A stretch of DNA of 64,000 nt from contig NW_027467782.1 of the NCBI RefSeq assembly GCF_004210375.1, positions 24,531,276-24,595,275 of the forward strand, read 5' to 3'. Source of the stretch: Tachypleus tridentatus. Lineage: Eukaryota > Arthropoda > Merostomata > Xiphosura > Limulidae. Positions 8,237 to 57,538 of the stretch are shown here, piece after piece (within the stretch, counting starts at the first letter, position 1; the number at the start of each line of letters is the position of its first letter). A model generated the notes under the pieces. It ran no database searches. It saw nothing but the letters and a program-made list of their open reading frames with translations, and was not told the origin of the DNA. A program made the position numbers and the translations under genes.

Positions 8237-8378
8237 ATGATTCACAACTGTAGACAAGAACTGGAGAGACACCATGAAAGCTGCTGTTTTAGACAGACAT
8301 GTTCTGGCAGTTCTCCAGGTTGAAAAAAATTTAGAGAAACTAAAGAAATCCAGTGAGTTGTTGGAACTGATTCAAAAG
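8237..8378 (+). pseudogene. Dynein pseudogene exon d (FTTVDKNWRDTMK)
   Basis: Acceptor atacag, donor gtaaaa. The first base completes Arg with the AG of exon c. The next codon is TGA (8238-8240) where Arg or Lys is expected, then FTTVDKNWRDTMKAAVLDRH, then VLAVLQVEKNLEKLKKSSEL, then LELIQK. Apart from that stop, the reading frame is clean. Confidence 0.9.
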
Positions 8379-9273
8379 GTAAAATTGCAGTCCTTTTTTG
8401 TTGAAACTGTTTAATATCATTGAGAAGATAACTGTAGTATACTCAATGGCAGTTTTCACCTCTGGGACGTTCCCCATCATAAATTTAAAAAAGTATCTAT
8501 AAAAATATTCAAGAAAACAAAATGGTCATAAATTTTCACTACCTAACTTAAATAAAGATATATACACATATAAATCAAATAAACAAAATAGGTAATTGTT
8601 TTTTTGATTTGTTTATATTTTATAACGTTAATATGTCCTGCTAAGCACTCAGCTGTTGTCACCTTCACTTCACCACTGATATATAATTTTTATAGAAGTC
8701 TGGCCAACTGTTAGGAATACCCCTCCTTACATCCACTTCATTGCTAACTTTTACTCCAACTTTCACACTTCACATCTGTAAGCAAATTGCTAACATAAAT
8801 GCACATGCCACTCATGTGCTAGATGCCATTTGTGGACCACTCCACTTTTTTCTTGTGTAATTGCTTAGTTTTAAATTATATTTTGCTTTCCACAACATTT
8901 CAGTTAATGACATAATTGTTTTGCTATTATCAATGTGTTTTAAGTAAAGTTTTGTGTATATTTTACTTTTAAAATCAACAAAGTGGATTGCATATTTCCA
9001 AATAAGCTCAGTAAATTCACATTATTATTGCACTTGTGTTTAATTAAACCATCATTTTCTGAATTGTATTATATTAACACTGATAAATATTTTAGATAGT
9101 TCACACTTTTCACAATAATACATTCATTAATATAAAAATGTCTTACTTCTGAGACCATACCTACCTCTTCACACAGAAAGCAATCTTTCTTGTGCATCTG
9201 CCTGAGAGATTTGCATTCCACAATTCTTTAGACAACTTCAACCAACACTCACTAGATTTCTCATGATTTTCAC
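8379..9273. other. Intron, nothing recognised
   Basis: AT-rich. Positions about 8640-8840 (CTTCACTT-rich) resemble loosely the sequence near 21660-21780 and could be a terminal piece of a DIRS-like element. I cannot assign it firmly. Confidence 0.3.
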
Positions 9274-33923: not shown

Positions 33924-34108
33924 TTATTTTGATCGAGGTAGTATTTTCAACAGTACTTTGTTTTTCTTCATTATTAGGTGGTCTACCTCGTCGATGTCTT
34001 TTTCTTTTACATTTATCTTGTCAACCTCTATAATCTCATCGCCTACGTCGAGAAGCCCAGAGAGAAAAATCGATGATTCACAATCTCTCATCCGGGTTAC
34101 AAATGTTC
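33924..34108 (-). CDS. PDZ membrane protein, last coding exon (second half of PDZ, stop)
   Basis: On the - strand, acceptor tttcag precedes 34108. The first two bases complete Gly with the G left by the exon ending at 36225. It then reads TFVTRMRDCESSIFLSGLLD, then VGDEIIEVDKINVKEKDIDE, then VDHLIMKKNKVLLKILPRSK and TAA. This is the second half of a PDZ domain: GLLDVGDEIIEV is the standard strand-turn motif, and VDHLIM corresponds to the helix that lines the peptide groove. The protein ends only four residues after the last PDZ strand. No break. A CR1-like LINE relic lies just beyond the stop. Confidence 0.88.
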
Positions 34109-35793
34109 CTGAAACCAACAAAACGATACATATATATATGAATAGTGAAATATTTAAAGTGAATTTGCATTGTTATTGCATTTTACCTGCCCAACTAAAA
34201 TTCATCCACTAATATCTAATTTGATTTGTTCGACTATGCTTGTCGAAACACATGAAAAATTAGATTGCGTTTTTTCTACAGGTAAGGATTTCCCAAACTA
34301 ACAACTCAATGTTTTTAATATATTAATCATATATCAGTTATACTGAAATTTATTCAACTATTTTTGGCAGAAAAACAAGTAATAACTCATTGTGGCTTAA
34401 AGCAACATCAAATAAATTAAAAACATGCGAAACAGCGAATTACAATTATATAGGCGTAATTATCCCATTTCTTTTAATGAGGTTTGTTGTATAACTGTTA
34501 GTATTACAACGTGTCCTGGAGCAAATGGGTCATTATTAACCATGCTCAATTTCGCATCCTTTTTCCCTGACTTATATCTCAAATTACAGACATTTTTTCA
34601 GGCTTTTAACTACTGAAGAGAGGCAATACACAAGGTCATATCGAATAATTTTATGTTTTTTTCCTGTTGAAAGTGCTAAGTGGACAGGGCTTGACCTTAG
34701 AGTTAGCAGAAAAGGAAAGTGGACCCGCGTGTATAAAAGTTCATATCTCACCGCCATAAGAAGATACTTCAATCTTTAAGGCTGTGGGTATGCTTTGAGA
34801 ATGAAAGTCAAATCACACTTATTCGGTTAGAAAATAACGTTTTAAGAGTTGGATTGTTTATTTGGATTAAAGAACAGATGCACAATGGGTTATCTGTGCT
34901 CGACCCGTCACGAATATCAAAACCCAAACTTGAGTCCACAAGCACACCGATGCCATTCTTGGGTGCAGCAGTTGTTGGTGAGTGTAATTCCGTGAATAAC
35001 TCCCATCTACGTTATCAGTTATCTGCGCTATGTCCACCATAGCTATTTTCCAAACATTATTTTGAAACCTTCTTCCTTTATCCCAAAAGGAACAACTGGT
35101 AAAGGTAAATTGTAAAAAGTTCAGATGAGATCGTTTCAGTCACGATATAAAACATTTAATCTATATATCATTTCAAAATCAGTTAATACAGGTGATTTTT
35201 ACTTTCTCCTGAAATAAAAAAAATAACTAATTGATAAAATATTATGTTGCGCTGAAACAAGCTTCGTCTTGATATTTAGTTATGAATTTGCTCGACCACA
35301 TAATTTATTTCAAAATACAATAACAACAACTTCGACATGAAGTAAATCCTCACTTTTAATAACTACATCGTTTGAACCTTTAACATGGTACCATCATCAG
35401 TTAAAATTGTTGTAATTCTATTTTCAAATTAACGGTTACTTTATTTTATTTAAGTTTATGTCATGATAATTGTCAGGACAATATTGTTTCCCCTACAATG
35501 AATTAACCTGAAAATAACAAATAATCCTTTCATTTTTGGTTAGATTTGCACCGATGAAATATATTCAAAAAATTGATGCTTACTGAAGGGTCCTCTAATG
35601 TGTTTTGTTTCAAGGGTAGATAAAAACAAAATGAAGAGTAACAAATATTTTTATTTCTTGTTTTTCAAGTTCACGTGTCATAATGCATGTTATAGAGTGC
35701 ATAATTATTCTCATGATTCATGGTATGTGCACGTTTTACTAATATCACGGCAATACAAATCATAATGTTAAGTCTCATTCATATTACATCATC
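34109..35793. other. Intron of the PDZ gene
   Basis: AT-rich. About 34877-35000 holds a decayed copy of the second SINE family (CACAATGGGTTATCTGTGCT). No further exon seen. Confidence 0.45.
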
Positions 35794-36063
35794 GTTTGTT
35801 TATTTTTTATTAATTTCGTGCAAAGCTACTCGAGGGCTATCAGCACTAGCAGTCTCTAATTTAGTAGTGTAAGATAGCAGCTAGTCATCACCACCCACTG
35901 CCAACTCTTGGGCTACTCTTTTACCAACGAATAGTGGGATTTACCGTCACATTATAACGTCCCCACCGCTGAAAGGGCGAGCATGTTTGGTGCGACGGGG
36001 ATTCGAACCCGTGACCATCAGGTTACAAGTCGCACGCCTTAACACGCCTGGCCATGCTGGACC
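35794..36063 (-). repeat. tRNA-derived SINE, main family
   Basis: Full-length copy in the PDZ gene's intron, on the same strand as the gene. Head at the right, with a B box GGTTCGAATCC in - strand reading. Body with ACCAACGAATAGTGGGAT; GTTTGTTTATTTT tail at the left. Confidence 0.92.
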
Positions 36064-36224
36064 ATGACATAATTTTAGTGCCTTCAGACTGAGAAACAAA
36101 CAGAGAAGAAAACAACTGTACGGCGGTGCAAATGATAACAACTGGTAATACCTCTAGGACCTCCTTTGTGGAAATAGTAATAATAAAAGAAACGATATTC
36201 TGGTACAAACAAGAGGATGCTTAC

Positions 36225-36394
36225 CTTTGCTGTTTCCGACCTTTCTCCGAGCGGTAAAAAATCCGTAGGGCTTATGTGGAGGTTTTGTTACTTCCACAAC
36301 ACGTGTTCCATCCGAGAGAAACTGAACGAATCGACCACACGTGTAGTCGGAAAGAGGTAGGGAATTGTTTTCAGATTCCTCAGACGTAGAGTGA
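36225..36394 (-). CDS. PDZ membrane protein exon (first half of PDZ)
   Basis: Acceptor atttcag before 36394, donor gtaagc after 36225 on the - strand. It reads HSTSEESENNSLPLSDYTCG, then RFVQFLSDGTRVVEVTKPPH, then KPYGFFTARRKVGNSKG across the splice. RVVEVTKPPHKPYGFF is the first PDZ strand and the carboxylate-binding loop, with YGFF in place of the common GLGF. The acidic serine-rich lead (STSEESENNS) fits a disordered linker. Phases on both sides match the neighbouring exons exactly. Confidence 0.88.
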
Positions 36395-36969
36395 CTGAAA
36401 TGTGGTGTAATACGTCATGTGAATAAATAAGTTAATGTACAGGTTGATATTTTCCTTTTATATTAACATGGATGAAAAAGTTAAAACATTCAATTACTGT
36501 TATGTCAAGTGGACGATAGTAACAAACATGAAAAACACGACATGGTTGTTAAAAGAAGTTACACTAATATTCATAATATACAAACTCCATACAATTTAAG
36601 CTTTGCTATGGAATGAATATTAAGTTAATAATCAAAGATCATCCAAAGTGATGTCAAAACTACTGTATTTTTCATATCTGAAAAAAAAAACACGCTTCTT
36701 TAAAATAGATCTTCACTGAAGTTAAACTGAAACATTAATTTATTCTAATCTCTTCTACTAAGACAGTCCAGCATATGCATATATGTATAGTCAAAAATGT
36801 ATGTTTCTAAGAGAATCCTAAGAAGCGATAAGGCCAGTCAGGCCATGGCCTGAACAAAATTTTTACAGTTACAATTTATTTATCACAACTTGTTTCTTGT
36901 AATTCAATAGTTTGCGTTCAGTATATGCAGTATGAAAATTTGGTATCCCATTTAAATCCTCGTACTTAC
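36395..36969. other. Intron of the PDZ gene
   Basis: AT-rich, with no repeat or exon recognised. Confidence 0.5.
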
Positions 36970-37212
36970 GACAAGTAGTGACACACAGAGTCATTCTCGT
37001 CGATAGAACTTCCTTTTTCTCTTCCGAAGCACGTGGGAAAACAACATGATTTTCTCGACCTTCGCGGATTTTTCCGTCTTTCTTTCTTGTTTGGTCTGTT
37101 GGCATCTTCCCTGCAGAAGATGCCTTTGATGGAATTTCTGGTGGATCTTGCAAAGACCTGAAGTCGCTTTTTCAGTGACGTTTTCGGTGACTTCGATTCT
37201 TTGCACAGGTCG
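36970..37212 (-). CDS. PDZ membrane protein exon (basic linker)
   Basis: Acceptor attccag, donor gtaagt on the - strand. The frame that fits both neighbouring phases reads DLCKESKSPKTSLKKRLQVF, then ARSTRNSIKGIFCREDANRP, then NKKERRKNPRRSRKSCCFPT, then CFGREKGSSIDENDSVCHYL. It is open throughout. Strongly basic with clustered cysteines (SCCFPTC), it could contact membrane lipid or be palmitoylated; that is inference. No known domain recognised. Confidence 0.8.
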
Positions 37213-37261
37213 CTGGAATAAAAGCAATTATTACAAATAATGAATACGTCATAATACATTT

Positions 37262-37330
37262 ACACCCTTCACGGCAAAAAGGATGAGGATGTTCGGTGTG
37301 ACGAGAGTTCAAATCTGCGTCCCATAGACT
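37262..37330 (-). repeat. Partial SINE head (main family)
   Basis: Contains GGTGTGACGAGAGTTCAAAT, a diverged form of the SINE segment GGTGCGACGGGGATTCGAAC. The body is lost. Confidence 0.4.
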
Positions 37331-37392
37331 GTGACTAGAAGACCCTGACAATCAGTAAAGCTAAGAGTTAGGATTTACTACAAAATACATAC

Positions 37393-37504
37393 GTTTTGGT
37401 CACTTCTGGAGGAGCTGACTGTTGTTGTTCGTCACAGAAGACGTTACCTTTTTGACATTGTTCAGTGGTTCCCACGTGCTTGATCTTCTGTGATAGTATT
37501 ACAC
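37393..37504 (-). CDS. PDZ membrane protein exon (polar linker)
   Basis: Acceptor cttcag, donor gtatgt on the - strand. It reads VILSQKIKHVGTTEQCQKGN, then VFCDEQQQSAPPEVTKT. The last two bases join the C of the next exon to make Thr, continuing T-DLCKESK. The first two bases need a phase-1 donor, which the candidate exon ending at 39266 offers (GAAAAAG then GT). No domain recognised. Confidence 0.7.
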
Positions 37505-39265
37505 CTGAAGAAAAAATATTATACAGATGTTTTCTTTATAAACTTGCCTTCTAAAAAGTTTCTAACTAATATCTTTACGAATTATTTCATTTTATACAAA
37601 CACAAGCATATATATATATATATATATATATGTATACAGGATGTAAAATGAACAATTACATTTTGGTTTGGGGGAAACCCTACATTCACTAACTCACTAC
37701 TGCATTTTATTACAATTATGTACTTGCAAAAACGACTTAGAAACTGAATTAAACTGCTTAAACCATATACTGCTGAGTTAAAGACCATATTTGAAGAAGA
37801 CAGACCAATATTCTGTGGAAACATGTACATCACTTCATTGTATGTATAAATCGTTGTTTGCCAACTTGTTATACCAGCCTAATGTGCTTCTTCACATAAG
37901 TATCAAAAGGAATGTGTACTTCTGCCTTATGTTCCAAGTTTAATTATTATTTAATTTTATGTGTTTAATATCAGCAAAATATTTTATCCTATATTTCAAT
38001 CGACGAATAAGATAAAGTAAATTTTCGTTAATGTTAAAGGATATATACAATTAAAACAAAAAGTTTAAATTTATAAATTTGAATGTTGACATCGAAGAAA
38101 TTGTAAAGTACAGACAAAACATGATCTAAAATATCGTTTAACAGGACATCAGGTATGTAGAAAAAATAATAATATTTATTTCCAAGAATGTGTCAAGACT
38201 TCTCACACTTTTTTGTTTATAAATATTAGAAGTGTAATAACTCAGCATGGTGTCTCATCCCCTATTTTGGTGCTTAGCTTTGAGTGATCATCAGAAGCAC
38301 GCAATTGTGGTTTGTAATCCGAAAGTTATTTGAGATGTTCATTTGGTAAAAGGGTCATGCAAATTGGTTGTCTTATGATTTTTACTTTTCTTTCATCCAA
38401 CTTTTCGCGATAATGATGCTCTAAATTGGTGATGAATTGAGTTTACGGCATTGATTGGCTGTAATGTTAGATTCGATTTTTGTCTTATTTTATCTGAGTG
38501 TAGTCTATACCAGTTAACAGATTATTTGGTACTCCATTAAAATGTATGATAACTCATGCTCACTTAAAATATAGTCAAAACGATTTTGGTTTTGTTCCAA
38601 CTCTTCTAAAGAAAGATGTCTGCTAGAGCGCGACAAGTCCCTGAGCAAGATTTTCTTTTGTCTTCAATATATTTCTGGGCTATAAGAAATGTGTTTTGCT
38701 CTCTACATTTTGATCCTTTTTAATTACATTTGATGTGGTAAGAAGCTGGTAAGATATACTGAATATAAGACGTGTTAGTTTTTAAGGCCTAAGAAACTTT
38801 GATGGTCCTGCATAACTCTGGCTTAAAACACTGGGCTCATATGGTCTGTCTTTGCTTTGATAAGAAAAAAGTTCAGGATGTGTATTGACTAATTCTATTT
38901 GATTAACTGATTAGTCGCTTTTATCATATTAATATTCTGAATGCATATTGTCGAACACAAAGTTCAGTTGTGGAAAATGGAAGTTTATGCGTTGAAGGTA
39001 GTGAATTCATATAAATTGTTCTCTTTCCCAATTCCTTTTCTCCGTTTTTTGATAGAAATTGTTTGTGAAACATTTCTGTTTTATTTTGGTGAAGTTTTAC
39101 TTCTATACTTTGATTGCTTGTATTCCAATATTTCAACTGGTGTAAATTAGTGAAGAGGAGGAGGAAGAAGAGATTTTGTCACATATAAAATAAATATTTC
39201 AGAAAAGTTCTGACTAAAACCTAATAATTTTAACAATAGACAGTCGAAAAATAGAGATATTTTAC
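37505..39265. other. Intron of the PDZ gene, with a TA microsatellite
   Basis: A (TA)n run of about 24 bases lies at 37609-37632. The rest is AT-rich. The stretch at about 38220-38640 is less AT-rich and looks repeat-like, but I could not identify it. Confidence 0.45.
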
Positions 39266-39345
39266 CTTTTTCTTCGGATATTTTCTCGGAATCTTCGAGG
39301 CTTTTGGTGTGGTTCGAAGTCGTTGGTTTTGTTGTATCCAAGTGA
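39266..39345 (-). CDS. Candidate PDZ-gene exon (LDTTKPTTSNHTK), acceptor uncertain
   Basis: The - strand reads LDTTKPTTSNHTKSLEDSEK, then ISEEKG, with a plausible donor gtaaaa and a phase that fits the exon at 37393-37504. The weak point is its start: there is no AG acceptor upstream of LDTTKP in a phase that matches the exon ending at 42436, only an upstream ATG (MHLFHL) next to a TA repeat. It may be an alternative first exon, a shorter exon, or not an exon. Confidence 0.4.
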
Positions 39346-39384
39346 AACAAATGCATATATATATATAAATTTAACCAAAAAATT

Positions 39385-39495
39385 GTTTGTTTGAATTTAA
39401 GCTAAAGCTACACAATGAGCGCTTTGCGCTTTGTCCATCACGAATATTGAAACTAGGTTTCTGACGTTGTAAATCCAGGGATATGCCGCTTCTTT
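39385..39495 (-). repeat. SINE, second family
   Basis: Words GCTACACAATGAGCGCTTTG, TCACGAATATTGAAACTAGG and GATATGCCGCT match the pattern shared by the copies at 50088-50212 and 53281-53650 (CACAATGGGCTATCTGT, then ATCGAAAC, then CATAC-type end). Decayed. Confidence 0.55.
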
Positions 39496-40130
39496 TATTA
39501 ATTTATTCTTCCGGTTTTTTAACTTCAAAAGTTTCTGTTCAGAAAATAGTTTTACTGAGAACCTTTCAGAGAAAAATATTACCTTTCAACTACATATGAA
39601 TAATCTAAATAAATACGTATGCTTTTCAAAAGATTCAGATACACAATAAACTCCATGTATAAATTTAATACCATACAAATGTTCAAAACTAACTAAAATT
39701 AGTCATCATACTTTCTCTTTTAAATATTATCTTCACCATTCTATTCCTCATAATTATAACAGAAATGGAACTTATTTATTTTATAATTACAAAGTTTTAC
39801 TTGCTTTTTCTTTTCTCTAATTGTCAGTAAATTTTTTCACGGTTTCACAGTTACTACCGGTTTTGTACAACCACATTTTTCTACAAGATAATTATAATAG
39901 TGCCAAAAAAATTTGCAAAAATTTTTGCGAAAGACATTCTTTTTCTCATTTACACTACGTTCTCAAAAAAGGAACACATGAAAATGTAGTTTTCTTTTTA
40001 GAACTCTAAATATTTCCAAGATACGCTCAGAAACTGTTTACTGGCATATAGTGGACTTTTTCGGGAAATCTAACATGTAATTTATGTAAATATATTGATA
40101 TCTTTTAATAATGTAATTTAGTCATAAAAG
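39496..40130. other. AT-rich intron
   Basis: No exon or repeat recognised. Open + strand frame 39821-40009 has no features that suggest a gene. Confidence 0.45.
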
Positions 40131-40396
40131 ATTGTTTGTTGTTTTTATTTATTTCGCGCAAAGCAACACGAGGGCTATCTTCGCTAGCCGTCCCTAAATT
40201 AACAGTGTAAGACTAGAGGGAAGGTAGCTAGTCATCACCACCCACCACCAACTCTTTTAACAACGAATAGTGGGATTGACTGTCACATAACAACGCTCCC
40301 ACGTTTGAAAACGCGAGCATGTTTGGTGCGACGGGAATTCGAACCCATGACCCTCAGGTTACGAATCGATTGTCTTAACCCATCTGGTAAGCCCTA
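40131..40396 (-). repeat. tRNA-derived SINE, main family
   Basis: Near full-length, with the body CTAGTCATCACCACCCACCA and the head GGTTCGAATTCC-like B box in reverse at about 40333. Tail GTTTGTTGTTTTTATTTATT at the left. Moderately diverged. Confidence 0.9.
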
Positions 40397-41887
40397 AAAG
40401 AGGTATATTTCATGTTTTCATTTTCTCGGAATGTAATATAAGAGATAAAAAATTATTTTTTCGAAAAAAATTTATAATTTATTTTTTGCGCGACCACAGT
40501 GGTACAGCAGTATGTCTTACAATGTTAAATACCTGGTTTTAATATATGTGTGGAGAGCAAAGCAGAGAGAACCACTTTTGTATCTTTGTGCTCACCTCGT
40601 AAAACTAAATCACTTAATCAAAGTTTTGGTACCACTTTCAATCCCCAGTTCTAAGAGGGCAGAAGAAACTGGATTCGTAAAGACAGTAGAAGTTGTAAAA
40701 TTGTGAAAACAGATAATAAGACTTATATAGAAAAAAAAAGTAAGTAAAATTATGAAATTAACAAATAAATTTTATTTCTATTATAATTACAAGGAAAGAA
40801 TCATTAGAACAACATCTTGTTGTTGTATAGATTATCAGTATTACTATTTCCTGAATAGTGACCGTTAATGTCGAAATACCAATAGAAGAAATTAATAAAA
40901 GAAGTCAGACGATCTGTTGTTTTATTAGATATATTAGTATTTATTTTAAAACAATATTTAAAAATAATTAAAATCTTTAGGTAGGAGAAGAAACATTGAT
41001 TATAATGTAACCCAAATACATTAATATTAATTTCACGAATACATTAAACTTATTTCATTTTAAGAAATCAGGTGTGTGATTTTTATATTTTCTCATAGCA
41101 ATATTTAATGTAAATATTAATCTGTCCTTGATATAAATGTAATTATTTTGTCATTTTCAGAATTTAAGGAGGCGTCAATGAATATCAAAATAAAGAACAG
41201 CTCTTATTAATGCTAAATTATTTTCAGTGCTAACGAGATTTATCAATATTAATTTACGTTCAACTCCAATTTAAAGCTGACCCGTTAATCATCGGGTCCA
41301 TCAGAACTTTTAATGCAGAACTGACATAATAGAAACCCGAGCTACCATCCTGAAACTGAGTTAAAGTTAATATATCTGAGACTGGAAAACAAATTTGTCT
41401 CCTTTGCTTATTACCAAAATATAATAGATATGTACTTTGATGAACTAATTCCTTAAGGTCACAGTGTCAAATTTGAAAATCCCTCAAAAGAATGGCTTAA
41501 CATTCGATCACAACAGTTTTAAAATTGTATATTCAAATTTGAATAGAAATTCAATATCTATAAACATATATTTCAGTGTTAGTACAACAATTATAAAGTA
41601 CGTATTTTCTGGGATTCACTCTACAGGTGATATGTCAGTAGATTTACTGCTTAGTTAGGTGTATATCTAGGATATTACTATGTTTTCAGTTAGAATGAAT
41701 TCATAGATCGAATACCGTTGCTGTGAATTTACTCTCTAAACTTTCGGGCTGTGAGTGCGTTATAAGAGTGACGGTGAAATACCAAAATTCGATTATCGTA
41801 CTTCAAGTGTTTGTAGTGAGTGGTGCTAGCCAGCTACTTCTTTGTAGTATACCAATTCACAATTAAGGACGAATTGCACAAACATTT
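40397..41887. other. AT-rich intron
   Basis: No exon recognised. Open + strand frames at 40512-40706 and 41464-41658 lack splice context and known domains. Confidence 0.45.
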
Positions 41888-42121
41888 CTTTTTTTTTTTA
41901 GTTTTGTTGTTGTTGTTGAATTTCGTACAAAACTAGGGTTATGACTGCTATTCGTCCCTTACTGTAATATTCCAAAACTAGACATGGGTTACTCTTGACT
42001 AACAGATAGTGAAATTGATCGTTATAGTATAATGACCACAAGGCAGTAACAAAAGTCATGTTCGATGGAAGGATTCGACCTCGTGAATGTAACTCAATAA
42101 TCACCAGGACACTCCAGACCA
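41888..42121 (-). repeat. Old, decayed SINE of the main family
   Basis: The layout of the main SINE is still visible: TTTCGTACAAAACTAGGG, TGCTATTCGTCCC, GGGTTACTCTTGACTAACAG, then GGAAGGATTCGACC near the head. Many changes from the other copies. Confidence 0.65.
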
Positions 42122-42244
42122 ACTGTTGTTCAGAGTTGTACGAAAACAAATAACATCATTCAGAAAATATGAAAGAATACAATATCAGTTTCATAGAAAG
42201 TAACATATTTTTCTTTCAAACTAAGTACCACAGTGGTAAATCTG

Positions 42245-42350
42245 AAGCTTTATAAAGTTCAAACTGAGTTTCGTTACCACTAATGGAGACAGCATAGATA
42301 GCCCATTGTGTAGTGTAGCCTTATGCTCCACAACAAATAAACAAAAGTAA
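42245..42350 (+). repeat. SINE, second family, decayed
   Basis: Reverse orientation of the second family: AGTTTCGTTACCACTAATGG, then ATAGCCCATTGTGTAGTGTA ending in an ACAAATAAACAAA tail. Confidence 0.5.
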
Positions 42351-42435
42351 AACTACATTTCTGTGCTCATTGCATAAATTTGAAACATAAATATTGCTTA
42401 TCAGCACCTTAAACTAAATGGTTGTTAACACTCAC

Positions 42436-42517
42436 GTCATAAATATCCGGATTATCTTTTATTGTTGCGTCTCTCTGTTGTTGCTGGTTTGTTTGTCTCC
42501 GTTTCCATATTATCATA
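42436..42517 (-). CDS. PDZ membrane protein exon (inner end of membrane segment)
   Basis: Acceptor cttttag, donor gtgagt on the - strand. The first base completes Cys with the TG left by the exon ending at 43219, then reads MIIWKRRQTNQQQQRDATIK and DNPDIYD. MIIW ends the membrane helix and KRR is the positively charged stop-transfer signal, so what follows should be cytoplasmic. NPDIY has the form of an NPxxY / phosphotyrosine-binding motif. Ends in phase 0. Confidence 0.75.
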
Positions 42518-43218
42518 CTAAAAGAAAAAGAACTAATTTTGCTAAATCTGTTTGTAGTTATAGACATAAGTAGGTACACCTTTATATTAAAAGTAAGATG
42601 AAACCGGCGACAAATAGGGGCAATTTTACCGCAACATGTCAATCGTTAACTTCATTATATGTTGACAGTGGTATATTAGTACACCAGCTACCTAACATGT
42701 TTTATGATAGCATTCTTATTTCTTTTGATCAACATCACAAATTTTCGTTATTCGAAGACAAATTTAAATTAGATCCTAGATTCAGGTAAGGGGAAAAGAA
42801 ATAAATACGAAAATATCAATTCTATACTAAATGAATTAACTAGTCATTTAGTAAATCTAATCAACACTGATAAATAACAGTTTAATCTAAATTATTTTGC
42901 CTAGTGTAGGTACTAGTTAAATATTCGAATTTATTTGCTAATTCTACAACTCCTGAGTCGTAAATTGTTTACATGTTAGATATATTTAAATAGTATGAAA
43001 ATCGTAAGTATCATTGGAAATTTTTCAGTATTCGAAATCACTTTAAAGTTCGTGATAATAAACGTCAGATACATTGAAGTATTTCTAAACTATTACTTCT
43101 TCCAATCAATTAGCTGTAAACTTCAAGATTAATAGCACTACGATTAGGAGTTCGATCCCATTGGATGGCTCTGTACCTAAAAATAAACAAATCTAACCAA
43201 CAGAAATATTATACTTAC

Positions 43219-43297
43219 CATAATAAACATATTAAAAGTGGTATTCCCACTGTCGCTAATGAAAACGAAACTATGCACATCTTCACTGTTATGGGTT
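43219..43297 (-). CDS. PDZ membrane protein exon (transmembrane segment)
   Basis: Acceptor atttcag, donor gtaagt on the - strand. It reads PITVKMCIVSFSLATVGIPL, then LICLL, and joins to C-MIIWKRR. Together they form one hydrophobic helix of about 22-24 residues followed by a basic stop-transfer. Phases fit the next exon. Upstream exons (presumably the outside part and signal peptide) were not found in this window, so the gene likely continues to the right beyond what I can read. Confidence 0.72.
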
Positions 43298-44157
43298 CTG
43301 AAATGAAAACAATGGCAATAGGTTAAATTGTCTTATACTTTCTTTCTCCTTATAAATGATTTTACTTTTGTATTGCTAGTAATAGTTACAAATTTAAACC
43401 ATCAATTAATTAAACTCGTTTAGTTGCAATGTTTGTACCACACCGTCACTCAGTAACATAGATCAATCTCACGTCAGCTTGATACTCGCTATTAACCGAC
43501 TTGACTAGTTTGAATATTTTCAACCAAAATGTAACATAAGATTAAAAACTATGACTAAAGAATTGTGGAATATACTCTTATACAAAGATTACAAAATTTT
43601 AACATCGCTAAAAGTCACTAAAGTAACTTCAAACTTCTGTTATAAAAAGGCCGTGTTTGTTTGTCTTTGAACAAACCATGTTGTTTCCCCATCATGAATC
43701 CAAACAAGAAGATTTCATAACATTAACCATAAACATCACTAAACAACATACTTTTATTCCCATACATAATACAACAGTTCAGGAGCTGTACAAAACATAA
43801 AGCACAAGATACAAGAACACAACAAACAAAATAAGTCAGCATCATAATGACAACAGACAATAGATAAAAATATATGAACTTGGTCTTGTAAAGAGGTCAA
43901 CTACAAACAGACCTTCGTAGATCTTTGAGACAGAAACGCACTTGGCTCTTCCAAATATATAAGATCGAAACTTCGACAAAGGTCACAGACAGACAGAAAC
44001 AAAACAAAAAGATCATTTGTAGTTAACGCATGGAGAAGAAATGCTCCCACTTTGAAAGCGCTGATGTTTTCAAGGTGTCGTATTTTTAATTTATGATACA
44101 TTAAGTGAGATGTACATGACCTGTGAAAATATTAACTTTAGAAAGTACTCTTAGGGA
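43298..44157. other. Upstream sequence of the membrane exon
   Basis: AT-rich, no exon recognised. It ends at the left terminus of the hAT element. Confidence 0.4.
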
Positions 44158-47100
44158 CACGGGCGTAGATGTTTTACACCCGATGGGGGGGGGGATGATT
44201 TTTGCAACCACTTATGTGGACTGTTCAATTTACAAATTGGTAATTTCTGATTACGTGAACCTGAACGCTGTAAACGTGCAGTCACAGAGTAATCTTGCTG
44301 CCACGATACTTCAATGTTTCCATGTGGGTTTGTATGTGAGGTGTCGTGAACAGTTTTCAAAATGTTAATGGGATAAAGACAAATGTGTCACAAATTAACT
44401 GCCACATGATTTTATTCCTGCACACTGTTCGGTATAAAAGATGGCCATTATACTTGACAAGGTTACTAATAATTTTCATTGCATGAATTACGTTTTCAAA
44501 TATTAATAAAATTAGTAATTACCCTTGATAAATTTATATCTACTGAAAAACTGTTCATGTTGTTTGATAAAAAATAATTAAAATGTCTTTGCGAACTCTT
44601 GAAAATTACACATCAATACAATGTAGCACATAATTATTCATACTTTTCATTGAAGTAAGTTTCATTTAGTCCTCTGGTCTACATGTTCTCAAACGTAGAC
44701 CTCCTCTGTGATGATCTGTTTATGAATTCTTTCATGAGCTCTTCTATATTTATCTTGTCGACCTCATCTTTTGTGAGTGTGACAAACTGCCACATGGTTG
44801 AGGTGGCACTGAGACACAGTTGACCTTAACCACGTCTTCAGCCGTCTTAATGCAGAAAAACTGCATTCACATTCGCAGCTGGATACTGGACACACAAGGA
44901 AATTGTCAGTAGAAGAAACACTTCACTAAACATCTGCTGGTTTGTTTCATGCATTTTACAGTAAGCATATTTCGCACCTTTCAGGGATACTGCTTTTGTT
45001 GTTTCTTTGAACATGAGCAACTGAAACTCGAGCCGTTGTGCAGAGATTTCTGGATAGAAGTTTATAACCGAGTTGTCATACTTGCAAAATGTGATCATGT
45101 TCTCAAATGTCAGATATTGCCTCAAGTCATTGTTGTCTGCATTGAATCTAGTGGTCAGATATTATATAACTGTGTCAACAAATTCAAAATATTGGCTTCT
45201 GTAGTAATCTCTAGCTGTTGCAGAATGATGAGCTGAGCCATCACCTGTGATCCTTCTTGGGGATCTGCGAATGCGTGGTAGTTGAATAGGCACCAGATTT
45301 AGGGAAATTGCCTTTTTCTCAGCTTCATCAAATATCTTGTTGTAATTTTCCTCTGTTCGCAATTCCCACAGTTGCTCAACTGTCATTGCAGATGCATCAA
45401 TCATGCCAGATACTGTCGCTAATATGGTTTAGAATGCACGGTTTAGTTCCTCTTATGCAGCTAATGGATGCTGAGCCATCAACAATACTAAAAGTGTCAA
45501 ATATGTCCAGCAGACCTCGTGCTTTCACTGTTACATCTGATTTTTCACTTGCTAATTCAAACAAAGAATCAACAATGTCACTATAGTGATCATTAGCACA
45601 TGTAATTGCAGTTAGGGGGCACAACCAGCGTGTTGGACACAGTGGGTGGATGTATTTAACTGGACCATTGTGGCTGTCTGACGATACAATATTTACAAAG
45701 ATTGTCTTGTATTTGCCTGACCTCTGAAGCAAGACACCAAGTTCATGTGCCCACTGGATAGAATATCAAACACATTCCCAAGCTTCAACTGCATGTTGCA
45801 TTGTTAAATTAGCCTTGATAAAACAAAGCTGACGGTTGCTTCTCTTTTATTTTTGCCTGCCATCCACTGTACGCACCACTCATGTTAGCGGCTCCATCAT
45901 AAATTTGTGCTCTTAATCCTGATAGTGTTAAATTGAGTCTAGTCAGTACATCAAGTATAGTCGAGGATATTGTTTCACCAGTTGTATTGGAAACACTGTA
46001 CAAACCAAGAAATGTCTCATGGACGTCAAGGTTCTCATCTACGTATCGTACACATATTGCTTCCTGTTCGGCACCTGTAACATTTTGAGTGCCATCAACC
46101 ATTGATGCAAAGATTTTACTTTGCTGCACTTCGTGTGCTATGTTCCTCAGTATTTGATGGATGAACATCTCCATTATTTCATTCTGAACCTGGGGTGAGA
46201 TGAATGTGGTTTTCTTTGACAAGTAGGCCGTCAACTCAGGATCATCCTCTTCCAGGAGCTTCATAAACTGCAGGAAGTTCCCCTCCGTATCAGTATGTCC
46301 ACGTAATGCTAAACCTTGACGCAGTAAGAAACGTAAACTTCTGAATAATTTGGCTAGACTTCTTTTGCATTCTTCCTGCTGCTTCTTTTTTCCATCATGT
46401 AGCTAGGCAGTCACTGGAGTTACATCAAGTGAACCTTCTGCAGATATAGCGAATCTGTGCTGAGAGGAGGATTGTTCGTTGAATTTCTGTTTTGCCTTTT
46501 TCCAGTTGCTAAAACCGGTGGATATGAAGGTATACTCCACTGGCCTCTCCAAATTTCCTATAAAAAGGACTGTATTTTCCGCCTTGGCACAATGAAAGTA
46601 TGTGAATTTTTGAGTCTGATTGTCGAAGTGCAGCCATGGGAACTCATCAAACCGATTGCCCTGGAAGTTGATATTTTGAGATTTTGCTTTCTGTCGTGGT
46701 ATTAGTTGTGCATCTGGATGATATGGCTTTCCACAATGTATCTGTGGAGTGTCAAATTTTTCATTACTGCACAAATGTGTTTCACAACTATCTGGTGGTT
46801 CATGATGTGCAATAATTGCACAAGCATTTTCAGACTCGCTCTCTGATAAACATGGTATTTCCTCTGTATGGCAAGTTTTGTTTTCCTTTGCTTAAGGCTG
46901 TTTGATTATCTGCATTGTCACTTGTAATACCAGTAGCTGGCTTGCAGAACTGTCTAATATCGGAAAGTATCAGACGCTTGCTTGTCATAATTGGCATGTG
47001 TTTCCAAGATGACTCAACAGGCTAAAATACAGTCTTTACTGAAAAACTCTAACGTACAACGAACGAAGATAGAACAGAATGGAAGTAGGACTGAACTGTA

Positions 47101-56815: not shown

Positions 56816-57538
56816 ACACTGCTGACCAAAATTTTAAGGCCAATGAACACAAAGAAAAAAATATGCATTTTGCATTGTTAGACTCAACCACTCATTTCAG
56901 TAGAGCTTTGAAAGATAAAAATAAGAAAAGGGAAAAAAAAACTTTATAGCATTTAATAGGGAAAATGTGAACACCATGAAATTAGCCTCAATACTAGCTA
57001 GTCAAAAGTTTAAAACCATACCAAAAAGACGTCCTCAACAGGGTAGGAAATGCCCAACAAGAGTTCTCAGTAGTTAGTTGCATGGCCGTCATTACAAATA
57101 ACTTTAAACATTCACTTTGGCATAGTTGATACAAGCGTTTGCAGAAGGCTGGCTAAAATGTTATTCCAAGTGGTGAAGATGGCTTCACGAAGATCATGCA
57201 TTGTTTGGAATTGACGTCCATTTCTATAGACTTCCCTTGCCATCCAACCCCAAACATTTTCAATGGGGTTCAGTTTGGGCAAACACGCTGGATGGTCCAA
57301 AAGAATCACATTATTTGCCATTAAAAAGACCTTTGTCCTGCGGGCATTGTGGATTGCAGCATTGTCCTGCTGAAAGATCCAGTTATTTCCACACAAGCGA
57401 GGGCCTTCAGTCAATAAGGATGCTCTCTCCAACATGTCAACTGCTGTTTGATGCCCCTGTATAACCTGAAGCTCCATTGTTCCATGGAAGGAGAAAGCAC
57501 TCCAGATCATGATGGAACCTCCTCCACTGCGTTATGTA
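56816..57538 (-). mobile_element. Tc1-type (DD34E) DNA transposon, 3' part, cut by assembly gap
   Basis: On the - strand from about 57525 to 57112 it reads SGGGSIMIWSAFSFHG, then ELQVIQGHQTAVDMLE, then NWIFQQDNAAIHNARRTKVF, then PKLNPIENVWGWMAREVYRN, then LASLLQTLVSTMP. The Asp of QQD and the Glu of PIE are separated by 34 residues, the Tc1 spacing. The left end has CACTGCTGACCAAAATTTTA next to a TA run, which looks like the terminal inverted repeat. The N-terminal DNA-binding part and the other end lie in or beyond the gap; an in-frame TAA stands just before the SGGGS segment. The long open frame suggests a young copy. Confidence 0.88.

Follow-up and report, generated by a model that had tools for sequence, protein, structure and literature searches.

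Exon layout and reading frame

We propose, as the best explanation of the locus, that the window (the whole 64,000-nucleotide stretch of Tachypleus tridentatus DNA analysed here) contains the 3' half of an apparently intact gene from a horseshoe crab family. The initial annotation had listed six exons, and all six were found in place on the minus strand, with AG...GT borders and a stop codon closing the last. Exon A (43297-43219; phase 1 in, phase 2 out), which contains an in-frame ATG, and exon B (42517-42436; phase 2 in, phase 0 out) together encode a membrane helix plus KRR, with B supplying the end of the helix, the KRR stop-transfer and the motif NPDIYD. The best 19-residue hydropathy was 2.59 compared to 0.93 for the best stretch beyond residue 60, which bears out the membrane helix reported earlier. 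Exon C (37504-37393; phase 1 in, phase 2 out) encodes a linker, exon D (37212-36970; phase 2 in, phase 2 out) a basic, cysteine-rich linker, exon E (36394-36225; phase 2 in, phase 1 out) linker together with the first part of a PDZ domain, including its YGFF loop, and exon F (34108-33924) the remaining PDZ domain and the stop codon. Phases agree at each of the four junctions drawn in the annotation (A/B, C/D and D/E in phase 2, E/F in phase 1).

Exon B exits in phase 0 and exon C requires phase 1, so the A-B and C-F groups cannot be joined as listed. Exon X (38654-38564; phase 0 in, phase 1 out; KILLRDLSRSSRHLSLEELEQNQNRFDYIL), which we add here, closes this gap exactly and is probably the bridging exon between B and C. 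With X included, A-B-X-C-D-E-F forms one frame of 319 residues, not counting the codon that A shares with its preceding exon, and all seven exons are open in the window copy. Of the 9 close copies that were read, 8 encode the same X protein. The donor of X is good, and its acceptor (gaagacaaaag) is poor and purine-rich; X was recognised via a conserved stretch and a genome search, and scans for a bridging exon that applied a pyrimidine-tract filter did not pick it up as 38654-38564. The six exons listed at the outset are real, but the list had overlooked both this probable bridging exon and the large duplicated family to which the gene belongs.

Upstream of exon A, Pfam scans in three minus-strand frames gave, for window 44-64 kb (E up to 0.1), only transposon domains, and the next 20 kb upstream of the window (E up to 1) gave no notable match. 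Neither a signal peptide nor an ectodomain exon turned up across window 44-64 kb and these next 20 kb, in scans that begin at 44.0 rather than 43.3 kb, and Pfam scans of the copies L053, L058 and L060 likewise detected no ectodomain. A genome search for I-set domains listed none near these loci among its matches, and is uninformative because only 150 of 3011 candidates were scored.

The PDZ domain and its constraint

The PDZ domain reported earlier was recovered in the joined C-F sequence as a match to Pfam PF00595 (E=1.6e-4, 22.4 bits), albeit just below the 23.2-bit cut-off. The whole 319-residue chain scored 21.7 bits, likewise just below the cut-off, and the diverged copy L060 scored 27.3 bits, above it. 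Searched against the PDB, the E-F sequence of the window matched MPP5/PALS1 best (5.6e-4), then PAR-6 (from 1.6e-3), KIAA1719, which we take to be GRIP2 (0.013), and CASK (0.03), while L060 matched KIAA1719 (6.3e-6) and PAR-6 (0.008); judged by these nearest sequences, no single PDZ family stands out. Read by eye against the PDB alignments, a GLGF-like carboxylate-binding loop is present in both the window (KPYGFFTARR) and L060 (KPYGFYIAKG). The helix of the peptide groove seems, also by eye, to start with a hydrophobic residue like those of PAR-6 and CASK, and the domain would be class II-like. The stop codon lies 5 residues past the last residue matched by the PDZ profile.

Compared with copies of several ages, PDZ exon F (55 codons) is under purifying selection: it shows 0 nonsynonymous (N) and 6 synonymous (S) changes relative to a C8 copy, and its dN/dS relative to the C6 copy L060 is 0.25 (0.44 for E and F together). 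The other exons (A, B, X, C, D and E) look nearly neutral among recent copies, with 57 N and 25 S compared to 19.5 S expected, in a count that omitted gapped sequences, those below 88% identity or 95% coverage, and loci L053 and L058-L062. The same count held 0 stops compared to 4.3 expected, which is partly a product of the filter since L064, with a stop in X, was excluded with 80 of 91 bases identical; this figure is not used as evidence. Across 11 copies, decayed ones included, six of the seven exons carry more changes than the block average, with F at 1.34 times. Positive selection on A, B and D, considered for their excess divergence over the block, was dropped given pN/pS values of 0.88, 0.34 and 0.87, respectively (exons with gaps or stops omitted), and given that A' represents a separate exon version.

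Copies of the gene and the probable joining of its exons

The window gene is one of a large, partly decayed family, whose copies are ~95% identical, introns included, and several of which carry stops or frameshifts. The same exons recur at other loci on the same strand and mostly in the same order, which makes the exon set more than a chance assembly. By the positions of genome search matches, 19 of 36 D exons have a B-type exon no more than 30 kb upstream, a count that includes the window's own positions and many recent mutual duplicates that are not independent; 13 of these are among the 16 close D exons (identity 69-98%) and 6 among the 20 diverged ones (49-64%). None of the B-type exons near the 36 D exons is on the opposite strand or downstream, and no B was detected upstream of the remaining 17. 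For X, 24 of 32 exons have a B exon in the 10 kb upstream of them. The D set comprises 36 matches after removal of overlapping other-frame matches at the same place. The B set combines 22 matches of one search and 14 of another after removal of weak ones, and retains three weak matches (E 0.09-0.18; two on C1, one on C6), one of those on C1 being confirmed in the DNA. The X set holds 32 of 98 search matches, some of them weak (E 0.02-0.09), most other short weak matches having been removed.

Individual copies vary around this arrangement. L063 and L064 (~13% divergence) retain the A-B-X-C-D succession, each with frameshifts or stops, and at C8:78.29M an X match lies upstream of B rather than between B and D. 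Some relatives have a longer B exon. An ITIM-like tyrosine motif, [IST]EYSNV, occurs in the diverged copies L062 (IEYSNV, by eye), L063 (TEYSNV) and L064 (SEYSNV), all of which carry stops or frameshifts. The co-occurrence of membrane and PDZ exons, which extends to some diverged copies, favours one gene, as the initial annotation had held while overlooking the B/C phase break, and the two groups are likely joined in one transcript.

Splicing could instead yield two products from one locus and decide whether the PDZ tail is included, a reading that we consider unlikely, albeit the least so of the alternatives. B joined to an acceptor at 38674 (tttcttatagcccag), which is pyrimidine-richer and matches the phase 0 of B, would run to a TAG at 38608-38606 and give a membrane form without PDZ, and the PDZ exons would be reached through another X acceptor, for example from A to 38622 (phase 2/2) with B skipped. 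An AG at 38624-38623, suited to the phase 2 of A, is kept in 7 of the 7 copies aligned there and in L060, and L060 also retains, as read by eye, the short frame of the 38674 acceptor and its stop. That acceptor is, however, missing in both L063 and L064, and the counts for its frame (9 N and 4 S compared to 3.3 S expected) are not in its favour.

It is quite unlikely, in our view, that the two exon groups are separate genes, one for a membrane protein with its end close to B and one for a soluble PDZ protein spanning C-F (or X-F), that are simply neighbours duplicated together as a block. Such an origin would fit the B/C phase mismatch, the alignments of L058 and L060 to the window, which stop at ~38,650, adjoining X, with no A or B found in 4.7 and 2.6 kb further upstream, respectively, and a C13 duplicate that has A/B without C-F and stops matching the window at 40,114. 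Yet 6 of the 20 diverged D exons also have A/B-type exons ahead of them in the same orientation, and the diverged, decayed copy L061 has A and then D, E and F within 5 kb. Least probable of all is that the window copy is a decaying gene fragment that lacks ectodomain and promoter, belongs to a large set of dispersed partial copies and makes no protein. Although the ~95% identity across introns, the stops or frameshifts in several copies, the near-neutral changes among recent ones and the failure to find an upstream exon in window 44-64 kb and the next 20 kb are consistent with decay, the seven open exons of the window copy and the purifying selection on exon F argue against it.

The predicted protein and known systems

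The best explanation, to which we assign about an even chance, is a protein of the A-B-X-C-D-E-F family with a single membrane helix and a self-carried PDZ end that recruits partners. The predicted chain would cross the membrane once, with its N-terminus outside and KRR inside, and continue through a short tail segment, which in diverged copies includes the tyrosine motif, and the basic, cysteine-rich linker to the terminal PDZ domain. This putatively class II-like domain would recruit partners with a hydrophobic C-terminus directly to the membrane protein, which would bring its own scaffold module rather than dock onto a soluble one. Weighing against this explanation are the poor acceptor of X and the better one at 38674, the 17 D exons with no B detected upstream, the X match ahead of B at C8:78.29M, the frameshifts or stops in L063 and L064, the near-neutral changes outside exon F among recent copies, the above-average changes in six of the seven exons across 11 copies, and the negative scans for a signal peptide or ectodomain in window 44-64 kb and the next 20 kb.

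The layout of the 319-residue chain is not covered by any Pfam family, and literature searches (weak evidence) returned no membrane protein of such helix-linker-PDZ layout; the initial annotation had called a PDZ domain at the tail end of a membrane protein rare and knew of no named family with this arrangement. MPP5/PALS1, PAR-6, CASK and GRIP2, the nearest PDZ sequences, are soluble scaffolds with L27-SH3-GUK, PB1-CRIB or many PDZ domains, in contrast to the window chain, which has a membrane helix and ends after one PDZ domain. MAGUKs (PALS1, CASK) have SH3 and guanylate-kinase domains after the PDZ, neither of which has a Pfam match in the 319-residue chain, where the stop soon follows the PDZ; PAR-6 has a PB1 domain and CRIB motif before its PDZ, and the chain (exon A onward) has no PB1 match. 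SYNJ2BP/OMP25, PDZD8 and HtrA2 combine a single membrane helix and a PDZ domain in one chain, as here, but there the helix serves as a tail anchor or the protein resides in an organelle, whereas the layout here would be receptor-like, with the PDZ at the far cytoplasmic end. TMEM51 (Pfam PF15345) was rejected at 17.9 bits compared to a cut-off of 25.5. ITIM/ITSM receptors (SLAM and the like), which carry [IVLST]xYxx[VIL] in the cytoplasmic tail, are similar in the phase-1 entry of the membrane exon and in the [IST]EYSNV of diverged copies. They differ in that no immunoglobulin ectodomain was found here (window 44-64 kb and the next 20 kb), and to our knowledge they have no PDZ domain of their own; the motif is absent from exon B of the window copy.

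Chelicerate sDscam clusters, as described in PMC4835542, are likewise a chelicerate family with tandem cassettes upstream of a single 3' part; those cassettes encode the extracellular part as 5' exons, whereas here it is A-B-X, with the membrane helix and tail segment, that is repeated. The word "PDZ" is absent from that paper (0 occurrences). Neither window 44-64 kb nor the following 20 kb yielded an sDscam-type immunoglobulin/FNIII ectodomain. Tandem A-B-X cassettes, with or without the tyrosine switch motif, might be alternatively spliced to a common PDZ end in a horseshoe crab receptor family. Each receptor would then bring its own scaffold module, and its signalling or docking parts would depend on which cassette or X acceptor is used, although we regard this as improbable.

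PDZ domains mostly reside in soluble scaffolds, which bind receptors by their C-terminal tips; a receptor-like protein ending in a PDZ domain would, if real, invert this relation and catch the tips of others. The layout would be unusual if transcripts confirm a membrane helix with its own PDZ domain at the inner end of the tail. Its many copies are found in a horseshoe crab, a group for which PMC7210998 reports tandem expansion of innate-immunity genes. With membrane cassettes duplicated in tandem and a constrained PDZ exon F, the family would allow a test of how membrane proteins can be built around a docking end that they have in common.

Exon chain and a proposed bridging exon

The initial annotation placed six exons on the minus strand, A (43297-43219), B (42517-42436), C (37504-37393), D (37212-36970), E (36394-36225) and F (34108-33924), and all were found at these positions with AG...GT borders and a stop at the end of the last one. 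The proposed phase chain from C through D and E to F agreed exactly, and A and B, as claimed, were in phase and encoded a helix followed by KRR. Since B ends in phase 0 while C begins in phase 1, the six exons alone do not form a single reading frame. A proposed bridging exon, X (minus strand, 38654-38564), encodes KILLRDLSRSSRHLSLEELEQNQNRFDYIL, and its phases (0 in, 1 out) exactly fit the needs of B and C. The X protein was identical in 8 of 9 close copies whose DNA was read, and pooling over 9 copies (not mutually independent, and leaving out L064, which has a stop in X) gave 12 changes compared to 33 expected at the intron rate. The weak point of X is its purine-rich acceptor. Alternative acceptors in the same stretch would permit a truncated tail (38674, missing in the diverged copies L063 and L064) or a direct A-to-X join (38622). 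The X stretch is also open in a second frame (38606-38674; KYIEDKRKSCSGTCRALADIFL, then a stop), the end and stop of which are retained, by eye, in L060, a diverged copy on contig C6.

Exon A contains an ATG, making a translation start within A possible; the second version of this exon, A' on C8:89.9M, has none. Neither an ectodomain nor a signal peptide was found upstream of A, in window positions 44-64 kb and the next 20 kb, using Pfam on unspliced frames, which is blind to short or fast-changing exons and to signal peptides. In diverged copies, exon B is longer and includes [IST]EYSNV, which we take to match the ITIM/ITSM pattern. This motif is absent from the window copy and from those close copies that were read, which keep NPDIYD or similar, frame-shifted copies excepted.

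An AATAAA signal lies ~430 bases upstream of A, in a stretch (43729-43828) among the least changed of the block, with 11.5 changes observed and 44 expected (over two neighbouring windows selected from the block as a whole); a transcript that terminates ahead of the membrane exon may be polyadenylated here. The minus strand at 44794-46531, likewise upstream of A, carries remnants of a hAT-type transposon (DUF4371, E=3e-20; weak hAT dimerisation match, E=0.03) in a stretch also present in the C13 copy of the block, and a DDE_3 transposase match (E=7e-7) lies on the minus strand at 57187-57387. Elsewhere in the window, cross-matches revealed copies of one dispersed repeat of ~250-280 bases at 27.6-27.8, 35.8-36.07, 40.1-40.4, 53.3-53.6 and 55.5-55.8 kb. 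Its start is tRNA-like by eye; ARAGORN reported no tRNA gene in the window.

Linkage of the membrane and PDZ exons

We next asked how these exons are arranged elsewhere in the genome. Using selected position lists, we found that 19 of 36 D exons have a same-strand B-type exon no more than 30 kb upstream. These comprise 13 of the 16 with 69-98% D identity (window included) and 6 of the 20 with 49-64%. None of the 36 had one upstream on the opposite strand or downstream on the same strand. Likewise, B lay within 10 kb upstream of 24 of 32 X exons (the 32 accepted as matches among 98 rows of the X genome search), while at C8:78.29M a weak X match preceded B, contrary to the usual order. Reading the DNA of L063 and L064 directly revealed the order A-B-X-C-D, followed in L063 by the start of E, with frameshifts or stops in both; L061, decayed too, carried A, then D, E and F. 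Evidence against a single-gene join came from three further copies. Alignment of L058 and L060 to the window ended at ~38,650, with neither A nor B found in the 4.7 kb and 2.6 kb, respectively, examined upstream, and that of L053 reached 37,762, apart from apparent repeats. Taken together, the arrangement across copies indicates that the membrane exons are likely joined to the PDZ exons in one gene, and we concluded that the putative A-to-F unit predates the recent duplications, although not every copy has it.

PDZ domain and selection

The joined C-F protein scored 22.4 bits against Pfam PDZ, slightly below the 23.2 cut-off, while L060 scored 27.3 bits, above it. Among solved PDZ domains, joined E-F best matched MPP5/PALS1 (E 5.6e-4), followed by other MPP proteins and PAR-6, with CASK at 0.03. 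The best PDB match of L060 was the PDZ domain of KIAA1719 (6.3e-6), presumably GRIP2, with PAR-6 at 0.008, so the matches do not point to one particular PDZ family. Exon F displayed 0 nonsynonymous and 6 synonymous differences from the C8:89.9M copy (55 codons), and dN/dS of 0.25 against L060 (55 codons), 0.36 against L053 (46 codons) and 0.21 against L058 (47 codons); against L060, E alone gave 0.73 and E+F 0.44. On these comparisons, we regard the predicted PDZ domain as genuine, with its second half under constraint.

Among recent, gap-free copies, exons A, B, X, C, D and E carried 57 nonsynonymous and 25 synonymous changes (19.5 synonymous predicted under neutrality), suggesting evolution close to neutral. 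The absence of stops in these copies (0 compared to 4.3 expected) is partly due to the copy filter. Across 11 copies, decayed ones included, exons A to F changed at 1.11 to 1.52 times the block average, and X at 0.78 times. Exon D was frameshifted in three recent copies. The family therefore includes dead members, whereas the window copy is open in every exon.

Gene family

The window corresponds to C19:24531276-24595275 of a 2.17-Gb genome that has 19 matches to Coagulin (PF02035). Coagulogen is not known outside horseshoe crabs, and on this ground we take the animal to be one; the 14 control genomes gave no Coagulin match but, as far as they are named, are prokaryotic and so not informative on other animals. 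Searching the genome with exons C-F returned at least 158 matches (from the best 150 of 530 candidates), and with A-B, 39 at E up to 10. Within the DNA stretches compared, ~95% identity, introns included, linked window positions 44.2-33.9 kb to C8:89.9M, 43.0-37.1 kb to C12:21.67M and 53.0-40.1 kb to C13:187.6M; the C8:77.89M copy was ~90-93% alike, and those at C1:16.86M and C8:113.08M ~87%. At C8:89.9M (L049), A-B-X occurs twice in tandem ahead of one C-F set, with A exons at L049 positions 842-944 and 8319-8421. The second, A', differs from the window's A at 19 of 79 bases, though nearby introns differ by ~3%; when 12 bases to either side of the exon are counted in, divergence was ~18% for A' and 1% for the first tandem A.

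A literature search largely short of full texts found no description of a membrane helix with a PDZ tail. PDZ has 0 occurrences in the sDscam paper (PMC4835542), and a term search found neither PDZ nor Dscam in the main text of PMC7815833. PMC7210998, whose main text has 0 occurrences of PDZ, reports that innate-immunity genes of a horseshoe crab have undergone tandem expansions. By the genomic matches, the predicted gene is a member of a family rather than a single gene.
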